A stretch of DNA of 64,000 nt from Gimesia chilikensis. Lineage in GTDB: Bacteria; Planctomycetota; Planctomycetia; Planctomycetales; Planctomycetaceae. Each line of letters begins with the position of its first letter. The stretch's first letter is position 1. This document shows positions 50,222 to 55,832 of the stretch, piece by piece. The stretch covers positions 7,716,564 through 7,780,563 of the forward strand of contig NZ_CP036266.1 of assembly GCF_007744075.1 (NCBI RefSeq), read 5' to 3'. Both the position numbers and the translations under genes were made by a program. The notes below the pieces were generated by a model that worked only from the letters and a program-made list of their open reading frames with translations, had not been told where the DNA came from and did no database searches.

Positions 50222-50800
50222 ATGAAAGTTCTTGTTGTCGATGATATTGGATACTCTTGTCATTATTATGCGCGGCTGGTAGAGAAAATTGGCTTCACAG
50301 CGGTGATGGCTTCGTCCGGTTTTGAAGCGATTAAATTGCTACAATCTGATAATGAGATTCATGTCGTTCTGACAGACCTTGTGATGAGCGGCATGGATGG
50401 TGTCGACCTGTTCCAGAAAGCACTGCAGCTGGAACGTTACTCTGACCATGGCGTCGTCCCTGCACCACAATTTATCCTGATGACCGCAGTACGTCCCGAG
50501 AACAATGCCCAGGATCGAAATCTACAACGGATCAAACTGGCCAAGGAACTGGGATTCTCTCGGATCATGTTCAAACCCCTGGACCAGGATGAGCTTAAAC
50601 AAGAGCTGAATGACATGTCACTGAATGTCATTCATTCTTCCAATACTGAAGTAACTCTCGACCTCTATTCACCCACTCAAAAAATCAGGCAGTCGGTAAG
50701 AGAGATCATGGCGACTGACAATAAAGAAGCCGCCTCAGAATTCTTAGAAATACTTCTGGAAGAGATCGCCAACCTGAAAGAATATCTCAAAACCTCCTGA
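50222..50800 (+). CDS. Receiver-domain response regulator
   Basis: The 192-residue protein has a complete receiver domain (1-125): acid pocket Asp7-Asp8, phospho-acceptor Asp52 in LTDLVMSGMDG, Thr88 in ILMTAV, and Lys118 in FKPLDQ. The C-terminal about 65 residues are helical without a DNA-binding or enzymatic motif. No kinase gene is adjacent. It has a stem-loop terminator after its stop. Confidence 0.85.
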   Translation: MKVLVVDDIGYSCHYYARLVEKIGFTAVMASSGFEAIKLLQSDNEIHVVLTDLVMSGMDGVDLFQKALQLERYSDHGVVPAPQFILMTAVRPENNAQDRNLQRIKLAKELGFSRIMFKPLDQDELKQELNDMSLNVIHSSNTEVTLDLYSPTQKIRQSVREIMATDNKEAASEFLEILLEEIANLKEYLKTS

Positions 50801-50913: not shown

Positions 50914-51267
50914 ATGGCCAGATGCGATCAGGGTTATCTCTGCATAGTTTGTGGTGAAGAAGTCGAGAATATCGAGGACAGCGGGCTCTATCTGCGCTAT
51001 ATTATCGGCGAAGTTCAAGAAGCAGAACTTCAAGAGCAACCAGAGTATCACATCCGCTGCAATCCCGCTCTCGCACAGTTTATCGTCGATGAGCAATTTA
51101 CTCCTGTCACAGTAGAGGGACCATTCGATAAACGCGAGCTGGATCCTGATGAAGCCCGACAGAGGGAAACTCTGGTTACAGAAGGCTGGCATCGACTACA
51201 AACAGTGAAACAGGAGCAACTTTCTGTCAGTGATTTCCCACTGAAGCGGGAAACAAACGACAGCTGA
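50914..51267 (+). CDS. Conserved-looking hypothetical protein with CxxC motif
   Basis: The 117-residue protein begins MARCDQGYLCIVCGEEVENI, with a CxxC zinc-type knuckle, then YLRYIIGEV and HIRCNPALAQFIV. The second Cys/His set could complete a zinc site. It reads as a well-folded cytosolic protein; I recall similar proteins in other planctomycetes, so it may be host-derived, not part of the element. The function is unknown. Confidence 0.68.
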   Translation: MARCDQGYLCIVCGEEVENIEDSGLYLRYIIGEVQEAELQEQPEYHIRCNPALAQFIVDEQFTPVTVEGPFDKRELDPDEARQRETLVTEGWHRLQTVKQEQLSVSDFPLKRETNDS

Positions 51268-51323
51268 CCGAATTCGTCTGCGACATTTTTCACAGCCATT
51301 CTTCCTCCATACCGTGAACGATC

Positions 51324-51362
51324 AGCACCTGTTGTTCTGAGCAACAACAGGTGCTTTTTTTA
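51324..51362 (+). terminator. Strong rho-independent terminator
   Basis: A perfect 13-bp stem, AGCACCTGTTGTT/AACAACAGGTGCT, with a 6-base loop is followed by seven T residues. It separates the CxxC gene from the overlapping small-gene run that starts at 51456. Confidence 0.93.
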
Positions 51363-51455
51363 TGTAGATCAAGCTTGTCTGCGCCACGCCGATCCAGATG
51401 ATACTCTCTCTTCGACAATAACCCAATTCACTGACCTTGAATCTTAGAGAGACGA

Positions 51456-51701
51456 ATGCCCGTACAACCTCAAAAAGGACTGTTCATACCTGCCTGGGTC
51501 ATCGCTTGTGTGTTTTCTCCCATAGTGGCAGGGGGAGTGGGAGCAATCACCTGGACCGCCAAGACACTCATCGAACACAGCCACCAACTGATACAGATCG
51601 ATGAAAAACTGGATGCCAATAAAGAGCTGTTAATAGAAATGGTCAATTCACACGAACGACGGATCAGCCGCATGGAAGACCGCGTATTTGGGGAGCACTA
51701 A
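51456..51701 (+). CDS. Small one-TM protein, holin-like
   Basis: The 81-residue protein has one hydrophobic helix (about 9-32) followed by an amphipathic helical stretch rich in Glu, Lys and Arg, the shape of haemolysin XhlA/holin-type phage proteins. Its stop overlaps the next start (TAATG), so translation is coupled. The family assignment rests on layout only. Confidence 0.6.
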   Translation: MPVQPQKGLFIPAWVIACVFSPIVAGGVGAITWTAKTLIEHSHQLIQIDEKLDANKELLIEMVNSHERRISRMEDRVFGEH

Positions 51702-52075
51702 TGCCCGAGATTCATCTCTCAGATCTGCCTGAATCACTGACAAAACAGATGGAAGGCCCGACACCTCCTGCTGACTTTGTCTCGAACGGCTGTAATTATT
51801 CTCCAGACCAGTGGGGAGGCGTTGATCTCCGCCCCGCCTGCCACTGGCACGATTACGCCTACCAGTTGGGAAGTTGTAAACGAGACCGGGCACGCGCTGA
51901 TGCGGCCCTGTATCGTAATCTGCGCCGCTGCGATCTCGGAAAGTTTATGGCAAACATCTATTACCGTCGCGTCAGGCTGTTCGGAGTCGCCGCCTTTCAC
52001 TGGGCGCCAGGTAAAGTTCCGCTCAACCCGTGGCACTACTTTCTCTTGTTTTTTAACAGGTACCTCCAATGGTGA
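51701..52075 (+). CDS. Phospholipase A2-like protein
   Basis: In this 124-residue protein, ACHWHDYAYQLG (His50-Asp51) matches the PLA2 catalytic His-Asp, with Cys47 before it, and RADAALYRNLRRC supplies the second Asp (Asp67). CNY and the Trp39-Gly40 region could form a calcium loop. Prokaryotic and viral PLA2-like domains break membranes. No signal peptide is visible. It overlaps its neighbours by 1 and 7 bases. Confidence 0.6.
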   Translation: MPEIHLSDLPESLTKQMEGPTPPADFVSNGCNYSPDQWGGVDLRPACHWHDYAYQLGSCKRDRARADAALYRNLRRCDLGKFMANIYYRRVRLFGVAAFHWAPGKVPLNPWHYFLLFFNRYLQW

Positions 52076-52914
52076 GATTCATCCACTTCCTGCTCGTCAT
52101 GTTGTCTACGTCCTGCCTGCACGCCCAGGCACTCGCTGTCAGGACAACAGAGACAAACTGCACTCCCCAAGGCTGTCGCCAGCTCATCGGAACCGGCGCC
52201 TGTGCATTCGTAGGAAATATCGCGGACCGCTCCGTTTACATTACTGCCGCGCACAATGTCATTCAGGCACGAACCATTCATGTCGGCTATGGTGGAACCT
52301 GGTGGGAAGCCCGGGTCGTTTTCAAGCGATATGAAGAGGAGATTGACTATGCCATCCTGGAAACCCAAAGAATTCCCGCGTCACACTGTTTCATACTTTC
52401 GGACACTCAACCGATAGACGGAATGGAGGCTATCGCTTACGGATACTCAAACGGAGTTTACAACCTCAAATCCCTGCGAGCCCGCATCCGGGTAACGCGC
52501 CGCGGGCATTGCTTTTCCAGACTGGTCGCAAAAGGAGATTCCGGAGGTCCTATTCTTGTCAATGGACAGATCGTAGGCATCATAAAAGGTCATGACCAGA
52601 CTCACACCATCTACACGAATAGCATGTTGATTCGAAACAAACTCATCAATCTGTATGGCAGACTGCCCGACTGCCACCCACCCGTGTATCGGAAATCAGA
52701 TCGCGCTTCACCCTCGCAACAACCAGAAAGCAATCGCAACGAACAGTTTGCTGCACTGGAGTCCGAGATTACCAGACTGAAACAACAGCTCACCCAACTG
52801 AAACAGACTCAGATTCCTGTACAGCTCATAGGTGCAGACGGATCGATCAAACAGGAACAGAGGTATCAACTCGGTCAACCAATCAAATTACGTTTCAAGG
52901 CCGTTAACAAGTGA
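52069..52914 (+). CDS. Trypsin-like serine protease with C-terminal coiled coil
   Basis: The 281-residue protein has a signal peptide (about 1-20). The catalytic triad is His62 (ITAAHNV), Asp93 (EIDYAIL) and Ser158 (KGDSGGPIL). The C-terminal 70 residues form a short coiled coil (LESEITRLKQQLTQLKQTQ) and a beta-like tail. It should act outside the cytoplasm. The start overlaps the PLA2-like gene. Confidence 0.85.
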   Translation: MVRFIHFLLVMLSTSCLHAQALAVRTTETNCTPQGCRQLIGTGACAFVGNIADRSVYITAAHNVIQARTIHVGYGGTWWEARVVFKRYEEEIDYAILETQRIPASHCFILSDTQPIDGMEAIAYGYSNGVYNLKSLRARIRVTRRGHCFSRLVAKGDSGGPILVNGQIVGIIKGHDQTHTIYTNSMLIRNKLINLYGRLPDCHPPVYRKSDRASPSQQPESNRNEQFAALESEITRLKQQLTQLKQTQIPVQLIGADGSIKQEQRYQLGQPIKLRFKAVNK

Positions 52915-52923
52915 GGCGAATTC

Positions 52924-53196
52924 ATGCCGGACGGCGATATTTTAGAAGTAGAATTTCCCATTCAGGAAAAAGGAGAAAAGGAGATGGCTGTAGATTTATC
53001 CGACAATGTTGCCAATCACATGCTGACGCAACTCATGCAGACCGGAACCGTCGCGCAGAATAACTTTGTGACGGTGCAGAAAATCGTGGATTACGACTAC
53101 CTGGAAAACAAACGCATGGTAACCCTCGATGAAGCGGTCGGCATTCGTGAAGTCGCCAGTAAAGTCACTCCCGCAGGTCCGTCGCAGGCCAGCTGA
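52924..53196 (+). CDS. Hypothetical protein in the small-gene run
   Basis: I do not recognise this 90-residue protein. The start could be ATG 52924 (GTGAGGCG before it) or ATG 52984 (AAGGAG upstream). It is acidic at the N-terminus with a helical middle and no membrane segment or Cys. Its TGA overlaps the next start (TGATG), indicating coupled translation. Confidence 0.55.
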   Translation: MPDGDILEVEFPIQEKGEKEMAVDLSDNVANHMLTQLMQTGTVAQNNFVTVQKIVDYDYLENKRMVTLDEAVGIREVASKVTPAGPSQAS

Positions 53197-53447
53197 TGAC
53201 CGACCCACTGGAAGAACTCATCAGGCAAACAACTCTGTTTCATGATCGCCTGATTAACGAAAACAATGAGCTCGACCGGGCGTTCCAGAATGGAACGTTC
53301 GGCGAGCTCATGGATTCCTGGAGCGAATTTAATGACAAACGAAACCACGCAGCCGACAAGCTGGAAGGAGAAACTGGCGCAGATGTGGTGGGGCGTGAAA
53401 GTGGGGGAACGAGCGGAAAACCTGAGACAGACAGCGAGACGCTTTGA
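53196..53447 (+). CDS. Small hypothetical protein, overlaps two neighbours
   Basis: This 83-residue acidic, helical protein (LHDRLINENNELDRAFQN-like) starts on the previous stop. Its last 116 bp are read in another frame as the start of the next gene. The C-terminal part is Gly/Ser/Glu-rich and may be constrained by that overlap. Function unknown. Confidence 0.5.
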   Translation: MTDPLEELIRQTTLFHDRLINENNELDRAFQNGTFGELMDSWSEFNDKRNHAADKLEGETGADVVGRESGGTSGKPETDSETL

Positions 53448-53766
53448 CAACGTCGATTCCCTGGTGATGTCCACACGGGAAAAACTGCTGGGCAAAGAAA
53501 TTGTAGATAACAATCGTCCTGAGGGCGAAGACATGCACATCGGAGATTACAGCAGCGTCACGCATCAATATCTTCCCCCAACAGGCAATGCGGCTGGAAC
53601 ACTCGCCAGGCTGGCTGTGGGAGCTGGACTGTTAGCAACCGGAATCGGTGTGCCGGTCGGCGGTTATTTGATCGCGGATGCGTTACGACAAAAACCATCC
53701 ACAACAGATGAGATCGTGATACCCGCCGATCAGGACACGCTCTTCAATCTGGAACTGGTAGAGTAA
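53332..53766 (+). CDS. Hypothetical membrane-spanning protein
   Basis: The start is set at ATG 53332, with GGAG about 10 bases before it; the frame is open to 53266. The 144-residue protein has a soluble N-terminal half and a hydrophobic stretch (about 90-120) with Gly-rich character, then an acidic tail. No known domain is recognised. Confidence 0.55.
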   Translation: MTNETTQPTSWKEKLAQMWWGVKVGERAENLRQTARRFDNVDSLVMSTREKLLGKEIVDNNRPEGEDMHIGDYSSVTHQYLPPTGNAAGTLARLAVGAGLLATGIGVPVGGYLIADALRQKPSTTDEIVIPADQDTLFNLELVE

Positions 53767-53896
53767 TTTATCCCGGTAGTTCCCTATCAGCACTCCTGAC
53801 TGAATGCACCCCAAGACAGGAAAACAATCACATCTAAAATAATCGGTATGGACTGTCTTGGAATCATCTAAATTCAGAAAGGTAAAGGTACCATTT

Positions 53897-54157
53897 ATGC
53901 CTCAATTTACTGTCTACCTGGCACGAGAAAAAAATGGACACCCGGTGAAACGTCTGGATCGGGAAGCACAAACTCATGTACTGGCGGCCAAAATCGCGCA
54001 AGCAGAATACCCGGAACTGGTCGTCAATTCGGTGCTGGTCAAACACGAACTCATCTCATTCTGTGCCCGTTGTGGCGGCCCCATTTTTAAAGCTGACTAT
54101 CACAAAGATCAGATTCGACAGCGAAACGATTCTAATCGCTGCCTGGATTGTCTATAG
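53897..54157 (+). CDS. Small zinc-ribbon protein
   Basis: The start is ATG 53897, with AAAGG nearby. In the 86-residue protein the C-terminal half has two Cys pairs, CARC and CLDC, separated by about 28 residues, and should bind one zinc. The N-terminal half is a short alpha/beta segment. Function unknown. Confidence 0.6.
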   Translation: MPQFTVYLAREKNGHPVKRLDREAQTHVLAAKIAQAEYPELVVNSVLVKHELISFCARCGGPIFKADYHKDQIRQRNDSNRCLDCL

Positions 54158-54177: not shown

Positions 54178-54735
54178 ATGGAAATCAAAGATCGCATCAA
54201 AAGTTTCAGGCGAATTAAAGCCTCCCAATTGATCCCTAACTCCCGAAACTGGCGAACCCATCCCGCAGCCCAGGAAACAGCGCTGCGAACCATCTTAAAT
54301 GAGATTGGATTCGCAGCAGCCTGTCTGGTTCGGGATTGTGGTGACGGAACATACGAATTGATCGACGGTCACTTGCGGGCCAATATCGCCGAAGATACAA
54401 AAATCCCCTGCCTGATTTCAGATCTGACAGTCTCAGAAGCAGATCAGGTTCTGGCGACGTTTGACTCGATTACCAGCCTGGCAGAGACTGATCAATCCGC
54501 ACTCTATGCACTGCTTGAGTCAATTACAACAGAATCAGAAGACCTGCAGGGGTTGCTTCAGAATCTGAAATCCTCATCCCCGGAATTACCTGAGCAGGAA
54601 TCCGGAGTCGATGAAACCGAATTGCTCACAGAACGATTCTCTGTTCTGGTAGACTGCAAAGATGAAGCGGAGCAATTCGCACTTCTGGACTATCTGAAAT
54701 CAGCAGGATATCAATGTCGCGCCTGGATCTCATAA
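54178..54735 (+). CDS. ParB-like N-terminal domain protein
   Basis: The start is ATG 54178. The 185-residue protein has the ParB/Srx-like pattern: IKASQLIPNSRNWRTHP, ALRTILNEIGFAAACLVRD and YELIDGHLRANIAED (the GHxR motif). Such single-domain proteins occur in phages, plasmids and DNA-modification loci as CTPases or nucleases. The C-terminal half is unassigned. It overlaps the next gene by 22 bases, which suggests a joint role. Confidence 0.75.
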   Translation: MEIKDRIKSFRRIKASQLIPNSRNWRTHPAAQETALRTILNEIGFAAACLVRDCGDGTYELIDGHLRANIAEDTKIPCLISDLTVSEADQVLATFDSITSLAETDQSALYALLESITTESEDLQGLLQNLKSSSPELPEQESGVDETELLTERFSVLVDCKDEAEQFALLDYLKSAGYQCRAWIS

Positions 54736-55832
54736 GGGAATCGCCCATTATTCGAACTCCGCGGGTGATGCAGCTGGAAGGGATGTTCGGGCTCGCAGCA
54801 GAAACCCGAAGTCGTGAGCAGTGGTCAGTAGAACTTCCACTTTCCGAGCGTCCCTGGAACATCGGTCTGATCGTAGGCCCCTCCGGGTGTGGCAAGACGA
54901 CCATCGCCAGGGAACTGTTTCAAGATCACTTCGTCGATGATTTTGACTGGCCCAGCGAGAAGTGCATTATCGATGGCTTCCCGCAAAAGATGGGCATCAA
55001 AGAAATCACCAGTCTGCTCTCATCAGTTGGATTCTCATCTCCTCCCGGCTGGCTGCGTCCTTATCATGTTTTGTCCAACGGAGAGCAATTTCGTGTCAAA
55101 ATGGCTCGCGCCCTGGCGGAGCTTTCCGAGCTGGTCGTAATTGATGAATTCACTTCCGTCGTCGATCGCACGATCGCCCGCACTGGCAGCTGTGCGATCG
55201 CCAAAACAGTTCGTCGCCGTGGTCAACAACTTGTCGCGGTGTCCTGCCATTATGATATTATCGACTGGCTGAATCCTGACTGGATTTACCAGCCGGCACT
55301 GGATGATTTCCAATGGAGGTGCGAAAGGCAACCACGGCCCTCAATCTCCCTTAGAATTGTTAACGTGCATCGAGATGCGTGGCACCTGTTCCGCAAACAT
55401 CACTATTTAGACGCTTCCCTTCATCAGGCTGCCAATTGTTTTGTGGCACTCGTTGAAGAACAACCAGCTGCCTTCACAGCTGTAATGTATTTTCCGCACC
55501 CGAAATCTCCTTCCTATCGGGAGCACCGCACGGTCTGTCTACCGGACTTTCAGGGAGTGGGAATCGGAAATGCTTTGAGCGAGTATGTGGCATCGCTCTA
55601 CAGTTGCAAGCACCGTTACACGAGTGTCACCGGCCATCCCGCCATGATCCGCCACCGCGCCCGTTCTCCCTTGTGGAAAATGACCCGGAAACCATCCACT
55701 GTTCAGAGGCAAGCTGGTTTTGAAAAACATCGAAAACAAATCGTCGCTTCAAGTCGTGGCAGGTTGACCGCCAGCTTTCAGTACATTGGCCCTTCTCGAC
55801 AGCGAGACGCACAAAGCTTCGGCCTGCTTTGA
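54714..55832 (+). CDS. ABC-type ATPase fused to GNAT-like acetyltransferase
   Basis: The first about 205 residues form a full ABC ATPase: Walker A GPSGCGKT (55-62), signature LSNGEQ (120-125), Walker B VVIDE (141-145), and H-loop His179. From about 210 a GNAT-like domain follows: LFRKHHYLDA, FVALVEEQPAAFTAVMY, the acetyl-CoA loop QGVGIGNAL (280-288) and SVTGHPAMIRH. There are no membrane segments, so it is not a transporter. Similar fusions, as I recall, occur in phage genomes beside ParB-like genes; DNA or protein modification is inferred. Confidence 0.82.
   Translation: MSRLDLIRESPIIRTPRVMQLEGMFGLAAETRSREQWSVELPLSERPWNIGLIVGPSGCGKTTIARELFQDHFVDDFDWPSEKCIIDGFPQKMGIKEITSLLSSVGFSSPPGWLRPYHVLSNGEQFRVKMARALAELSELVVIDEFTSVVDRTIARTGSCAIAKTVRRRGQQLVAVSCHYDIIDWLNPDWIYQPALDDFQWRCERQPRPSISLRIVNVHRDAWHLFRKHHYLDASLHQAANCFVALVEEQPAAFTAVMYFPHPKSPSYREHRTVCLPDFQGVGIGNALSEYVASLYSCKHRYTSVTGHPAMIRHRARSPLWKMTRKPSTVQRQAGFEKHRKQIVASSRGRLTASFQYIGPSRQRDAQSFGLL

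Follow-up and report, generated by a model that had tools for sequence, protein, structure and literature searches.

We have analysed a 64,000-nucleotide stretch of the Gimesia chilikensis genome, referred to here as the window, in which two overlapping genes are likely to encode a machine for the chemical marking of DNA: the first encodes a ParB-like protein, and the second encodes a fusion of an ABC ATPase and a GNAT acetyltransferase (hereafter ABC-GNAT). The reading that we favour, with a probability of about 0.6, is that the pair is a phage-type system of DNA base modification by acylation, similar in its action to Mom, the adenine modifier of phage Mu, but built from other machinery; the chemistry is predicted. 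DNA acylation is the most likely activity, because the exchanges with Mom that are found in phages, the acetyl-CoA loop, the ATPase, the ParB-like partner and a published prediction all fit it. In Gimesia, the best explanation of the pair is that it is phage-derived, vertically inherited and retained by the host under selection, possibly as part of an element that resembles a gene transfer agent.

The original prediction of a ParB-like gene that overlaps an ABC-ATPase/GNAT fusion gene by 22 bases has been confirmed at the positions listed in Table 1; both frames begin with ATG, and an alternative in-frame TTG is available to the first gene at position 54148.

Table 1. Features of the gene pair and of the genes that precede it, in window coordinates.
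Feature	Position	Strand	Basis or remark
ParB/Srx-fold gene, upstream partner	54178..54735	+	185 aa; profile and Foldseek
C-terminal tail domain of about 38 residues (residues 147-185)	54616..54732	+	tail HMM
22-nt overlap	54714..54735	+	second gene's ATG spans the codon of the conserved tail Cys
ABC-ATPase/GNAT fusion, PHROG 11143	54714..55832	+	372 aa
Walker A, residues 55-62 (GPSGCGKT)	54876..54899	+	pattern in 53/53 homologues
ABC signature, residues 120-124 (LSNGE)	55071..55085	+	pattern in 53/53 homologues
Walker B, catalytic Glu and D-loop, residues 140-151	55131..55166	+	conserved motifs
GNAT half, residues 206-372	55329..55829	+	Pfam Acetyltransf_1 in the family; model
Acetyl-CoA loop LPDFQGVGIG, residues 276-285	55539..55568	+	homologue alignment and pattern
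Rest of the genus-conserved cassette	50914..54157	+	synteny in 13/13 Gimesia loci
Cassette gene of no assigned function	50914-51267	+	
Small membrane protein	51456-51701	+	holin-like by eye only
Prokaryotic PLA2-like	51701-52075	+	
Trypsin-like protease	52069-52914	+	
Cassette genes of no assigned function	52924-53196, 53196-53447, 53266-53766	+	
Zn-ribbon-like	53858-54157	+	weak

In addition to the Walker A and signature motifs, the ABC half of the fusion carries DEF at residues 144-146, SVVD at residues 148-151 and H179. In an alignment of 53 homologues, D144, E145, F146 and D151 are invariant, the strict Walker B and D-loop patterns are matched by 48 and 51 sequences, respectively, and the spacing from Walker A to the signature is 61-69 residues. 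The invariant residues of the GNAT half are W223, F226, H230, Y231, R272, P277, D278, Q280, G281, P309 and W321; the acetyl-CoA loop thus has Q280 and G281 in 53/53 homologues, with G283 in 52/53 and the strict LPxx[QR]xxGx[GA] pattern in 44/53, so that the lack of an acetyl-CoA pocket, which would have spoken against the original prediction, is not what the family displays. Pfam detects ABC_tran (4.3e-8) and, below its own cut-off, Acetyltransf_7 (3.4e-4) in the window protein, and Acetyltransf_1 in 46 of the 53 family members. An AlphaFold2 model of the fusion, built from 53 sequences, is confident (pLDDT 91.3, pTM 0.83), and sequence and model together point to the GNAT superfamily through its Q/RxxGxG/A acetyl-CoA loop and its strand order; since the best 50 of the 735 structure-search matches (E<=0.001) are matches to ABC ATPases, the GNAT half has been judged from the sequence and the model alone.

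The fusion had been described as unusual, which is only partly right, as it already constitutes a phage family: it matches PHROG 11143, annotated as of unknown function, along its full length (E 7.5e-105, residues 29-362). In excerpts of PMC7824862, acylation of a DNA base is predicted for ABC-GNAT proteins, and phage pT24 is named, in which we have found a homologue of the window fusion (34.6% identity). These published proteins have the same domains as the window fusion, which stands with a tail-bearing ParB partner and is fixed in a bacterial genus. The PADLOC matches of the fusion are at the level of the ABC domain only (mad3 1.5e-10, mad8 8.6e-7).

By tblastn, the fusion is found in 61 of 50,697 phage records, some of which match the ABC half only; IMG/VR has yielded 188 stretches with the fusion and the genome collection 445, with 80 kept from each, and those kept from the genome collection include Planctomycetota, Actinomycetota (e.g. 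Nonomuraea) and proteobacteria. In evenly drawn samples of Gimesia's class, the fusion occurs at E<=1e-20 in 43/118 genomes and 27/71 genera. ABC and GNAT are separate genes in the Lactococcus, the Oenococcus and the Streptococcus phage examined (one of each), where the same 22-nt overlap joins the upstream gene to the ABC gene. Rhizobium phage RHph_Y2_11 (L297 1978-4612) has ParB-like genes and an ABC protein of 214 aa; its match to PHROG 11143 is confined to the ABC half, and its length leaves no room for a GNAT. Of the 185 loci scanned, only 5 (4 phages) have a formyltransferase (PHROG 9240) after ABC-GNAT, and it therefore is not a core component; genes of this family or similar ones lie at L126 7110-7724, L128 1814-2461, L305 12554-13027 and L302 5085-5561, and that of Gordonia phage Sisko is annotated as a tRNA-methyltransferase.

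The family profile and the predicted structure of the first protein assign it to the ParB/Srx fold: ParB_N of Pfam scores only 0.053 on the protein alone, the profile of its family reaches 7.5e-17 in matches to Noc/Spo0J chains, and Foldseek retrieves a CDP-bound ParB (6sdk, 7e-7). In the model, helices 85-100, 106-115 and 121-132 are followed by a low-confidence linker and then by the tail. Partition ParBs have a CTP motif of the GERR type; the window protein shares the N-terminal ParB/Srx fold of partition ParB and Noc, but has GHLR at this motif (family consensus GHGR), and the earlier description of the protein as a ParB of the DNA-binding/CTPase type is not supported. Among PHROGs, the ParB part is matched best by PHROG 498 (1.5e-14), which comprises fusions of ParB with DNA methyltransferases: in both cases, ParB is coupled to a DNA modifier (a predicted one in the window), but the partner of the window ParB is a separate ABC-GNAT protein rather than a methyltransferase.

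The common partner of ABC-GNAT is the tail of about 38 residues, with or without a ParB domain. Our count is based on 86 non-redundant loci, i.e. 74 that remained from 96 after the removal of copies that were at least 85% identical, 3 that were added, and 9 Gimesia representatives; the tail is found in the reading frame just upstream of ABC-GNAT in 80 of them, with the identical 22-nt overlap in 56 of the 80, which argues that the arrangement is not due to chance. ParB and tail occur together in 73 loci, and ParB without the tail in none; the tail occurs without ParB in 7 loci (L011, where the contig end cuts it, and L070, L117, L118, L119, L126 and L127, where the frame is short), and neither is found in 6 (L036, L116, L129, L130, L131 and L075). 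The tail profile was built from 57 tails and the ParB profile from 45 ParBs, drawn from a part of the loci that were later counted, and the match of the window tail to the tail profile (E 4e-18) is that of a training member; the tail of Arthrobacter phage EastWest (E 4.9e-10) and the ParBs that are paired with Mom are independent of the training. The set of genome contigs, which is only largely independent of it, since Gimesia and some previously used genomes are among its members, has the tail in 67/80 loci; the 13 misses include the contig-edge cases L187 and L226 and six actinobacterial loci. The tail residue that underlies the start codon of the second gene is a cysteine in 56/56 loci with the 22-nt overlap and in 2/2 with a 19-nt overlap; the code permits only cysteine or tryptophan there, so that the overlap explains this conservation, which is not evidence of catalysis. 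The co-occurrence of ParB and ABC-GNAT in other genomes agrees with what the original prediction had required, and the proposed joint modification machine draws support both from this conserved pairing and from the exchanges with Mom.

ABC-GNAT and Mom replace one another in three phage groups, at an equivalent slot in the Porphyromonas and the Arthrobacter phages, and at a nearby position, rather than at one site, in the Enterococcus phages; the exchanges are few, and were reached by following matches, without a matched control. Over the 7.9 kb of tail genes that lead up to the slot, Porphyromonas phages phage015a (L303) and phage011a (L305) share 90.9% identity. The slot holds a Mom homologue in phage015a (33% identity to Mu Mom, E 2.5e-25); in phage011a, it holds ABC-GNAT, preceded by a mini-tail (E 4e-6) and followed by a formyltransferase. 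The identity returns in the final 91 bp (81%), indicating a clean swap, and the slot lies at the record's right end, which is the location of com-mom in phage Mu. Arthrobacter phages EastWest (L122) and Grekaycon (L309) share the gene order around the slot: a ParB-like gene, ABC-GNAT or a Mom-like gene, a convergent gene for a DNA-binding protein, a sliding clamp and further genes, with one extra small gene between the ParB-like and Mom-like genes in Grekaycon. Seven flanking pairs are 27-81% identical, while the eighth (gp81/gp76) has no match; the ParB-like proteins, which are 55% identical over 132 residues, bear the tail in EastWest. A Mom-like protein is also located beside the same ParB family in Microbacterium phage Pickles13; the Mom-paired ParBs match the ParB profile (7e-24 in Grekaycon, 3.4e-19 in Pickles13), and no tail has been found in either of them. 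In Enterococcus phage PMBT2, Mom directly follows the DNA polymerase, while at the same junction phage 9184 has no Mom, and has ABC and GNAT genes no more than about 1.5 kb upstream, where their coding regions are flanked on either side by a piece of a DNA polymerase gene (L308 3887-7403). In Aeromonas phage PX29, a Mom homologue and ABC-GNAT are present together, and therefore the two are not strict alternatives. For Pseudomonas phage Komp_PAO1_1, a sister with Mom in the slot was sought, and no close sister was found in the collection.

Mom (PHROG 1384; PDB 8bv8, ‘Methylcarbamoylase mom’) is, like ABC-GNAT, a member of the GNAT superfamily, as excerpts of PMC7824862 also state, and the two have in common the slot in two phage groups, a nearby position in a third and, in one Arthrobacter and one Microbacterium phage, the ParB-family neighbour of Mom; Mom differs in having neither the ABC ATPase nor the tail, and no profile similarity between them is detectable. 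Membership of the GNAT half in the Mom family has been rejected: PHROGs keep them apart (11143 and 1384), and hhalign gives a probability of 0.2%, with a shallow Mom profile of 7 sequences that are 85-99% identical to Mu Mom. Mom, put forward as a loose precedent, is thus a better one than that by genomic position, but not by sequence.

An RNA substrate is an unlikely alternative to DNA. TmcA/NAT10 has, like the fusion, a P-loop ATPase and a GNAT on one chain, but its ATPase is of the helicase type rather than the ABC type, and its substrate is RNA; the pair might acetylate cytidine in RNA (tRNA) in the same manner, a reading with which the tRNA genes that accompany some pairs on their stretches would agree. 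Two of the four PDB matches of the GNAT profile are to RNA cytidine acetyltransferase, over the stretch RxxVxPDxQGxG, but with E-values (0.047 and 0.076) that are not significant, and the exchanges with Mom, along with the terminase neighbourhood, point to DNA.

That neighbourhood has been scanned through the first large downstream gene, a suitable one being present in 49 of the 56 non-redundant viral loci: Pfam identifies Terminase_6N in 21, GpA_ATPase in 10, TerL_ATPase in 8, Terminase_3 in 6 and a portal in 2, which amounts to a terminase in up to 45/49, as the counts may overlap between Pfam families. Such a gene is present in 47 of the 75 non-Gimesia genome-contig loci, and 44 were scanned, leaving out L201, L202 and L234, with 11 matches to Terminase_6N, 4 to Terminase_3 and 1 to GpA_ATPase among the 25 of 40 families listed. 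A terminase next door is no proof that DNA is the substrate, and it invites a reading that we regard as similarly unlikely to RNA acetylation, namely that the pair is a factor for packaging or late genes that acetylates or remodels the terminase or another DNA-bound protein. The frequency of downstream terminases speaks for this, but the viral contig set is biased towards phages, DNA-modification genes too are often located beside the terminase, and the stretches of several phages have no annotated terminase around the gene, which is adjoined by tail-fibre or replication genes instead.

In Gimesia, the fusion is found at E<1e-100 in 16 of 17 genomes, the one miss being a genome that is 76% complete; the window genome (G000) is a single contig of 8.29 Mb. 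In the 13/13 Gimesia loci examined, the pair follows the same cassette (Table 1) and precedes an LmbE-like and a nagB gene; the exceptions are a PLA2-like match that is cut short in one locus, and the response-regulator-like gene that heads the cassette (50222-50800), which has no match in two. Two of the cassette genes (53196-53447 and 53266-53766) overlap by 182 nt in different frames, and both are matched in Gimesia loci. Apart from the pair, no window gene has a match in the 103 other fetched loci. Two IMG/VR contigs contain homologues of cassette genes (five in L284 and three in L285, where they stand beside head-tail genes by our reading of the frames), from which it follows that the cassette is at least partly phage-related; a pattern method has found no IMG/VR relatives of the cassette PLA2-like protein or of the Gimesia TerL, and it misses some, since L284 does contain a PLA2-like homologue. 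The pair is under purifying selection: dN/dS is 0.12-0.19 for ParB and 0.10-0.11 for ABC-GNAT against three close relatives, and 0.11 and 0.07, respectively, against G010.

About 37 kb past the end of the window, the genome carries TerL and portal genes (7817495-7820704, L143), which belong to a phage-derived cluster of terminase, portal, capsid and tail genes. The distance from pair to portal is 42-51 kb, in the same orientation, in the 12 Gimesia genomes that have both on one contig; the portal is found in 17/17 Gimesia, split in G009 (into pieces about 43 kb apart) and in G016. In the class sample, the TerL of the cluster is found in 9/9 Gimesia and in 0/109 other genomes; Pfam Terminase_6N is detected on the Gimesia TerL in 0/17, while the TerL of G002, a genome that also has head-tail adaptor and tail genes, matches PHROG 2 (7e-16). 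The cluster capsid is found in 11/17 Gimesia (one truncated, one over two contigs); a distant match of 24% is all that G015 has, and 5 of the 17 have none, three of these six being fragmented assemblies. A deletion of 18.4 kb has removed the genes from capsid to tail in G000 (21291/21293, against 27038/45420 in G001, in joined-stretch coordinates), and the block is also missing, with different breakpoints, from G005 and G013; consequently, the pair and its cassette persist where the cluster cannot make particles. In G000, the deletion (L144, near 7826290) joins a prohead-protease-like gene to a frame that lies beyond the tail genes in G001. Host-like genes are interspersed among the parts of the cluster, and it is partly lost in several Gimesia species.

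These losses would be expected if the Gimesia pair were a non-functional prophage remnant, a reading that we hold to be improbable, as both frames are intact, dN/dS is 0.07-0.19 and the synteny is kept in 13/13 loci. The cluster is a candidate gene-transfer-agent-like element: its phage structural genes have been kept vertically under purifying selection, as seen in the portal and TerL (dN/dS against G001 0.12 and 0.08), but a complete set of head and tail genes is not found in G000, given the deletion and the missing capsid match. Least probable of all is a role in host takeover or counter-defence by the acetylation of a host protein, as with Rac of phage on RNA polymerase, for although excerpts of PMC7824862 attest to phage GNATs that acetylate host proteins, this would account neither for the exchanges with Mom nor for the presence of an ABC domain and a ParB partner.

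If the pair does acylate DNA, its action could be envisaged as follows: the ParB/Srx-like domain would bring the complex to DNA, or supply a nucleotide switch; the C-terminal tail, judging by its co-occurrence with ABC-GNAT, would dock the fusion; ATP-driven dimerisation of the ABC domains, whose motifs are intact, would expose a base; and the GNAT would use acyl-CoA to acylate an exocyclic amine, at N6 of adenine or N4 of cytosine, the acylated DNA then being shielded from nucleases. We also propose, much more tentatively, that the pair exemplifies a separate kind of DNA marking, in which a ParB-family targeting module is shared by unrelated modifiers (Mom, ABC-GNAT and perhaps methyltransferases), the docking tail commits this module to an ATP-driven acyltransferase, and the Gimesia host keeps the system, possibly to mark the DNA that a gene-transfer-agent-like element packages or handles.

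ABC-GNAT as a phage family (PHROG 11143) and the prediction that it acylates DNA (excerpts of PMC7824862) were already known, whereas three findings are new as far as the literature searched extends: that the tail is the common partner, that ABC-GNAT and Mom are exchanged, and that Gimesia has retained a copy. A partial literature search has returned no paper in which ParB, ABC and GNAT are joined in this way; the pair is not described in the available portions of PMC12839542, PMC10853773 (work on BREX and Dnd) and PMC10434257, PMC8670742 contains none of the terms sought, and the titles and abstracts searched mention no gene transfer agent in Planctomycetes.

The exchange with Mom, the common ParB-family neighbour and the short tail make the predicted marking of DNA by ABC-GNAT testable; if ABC-GNAT does mark DNA, this would suggest a targeting role for the ParB-like proteins that are found beside phage modification genes. 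For Gimesia, the genus-wide cluster constitutes a candidate gene-transfer-agent-like element in Planctomycetes.
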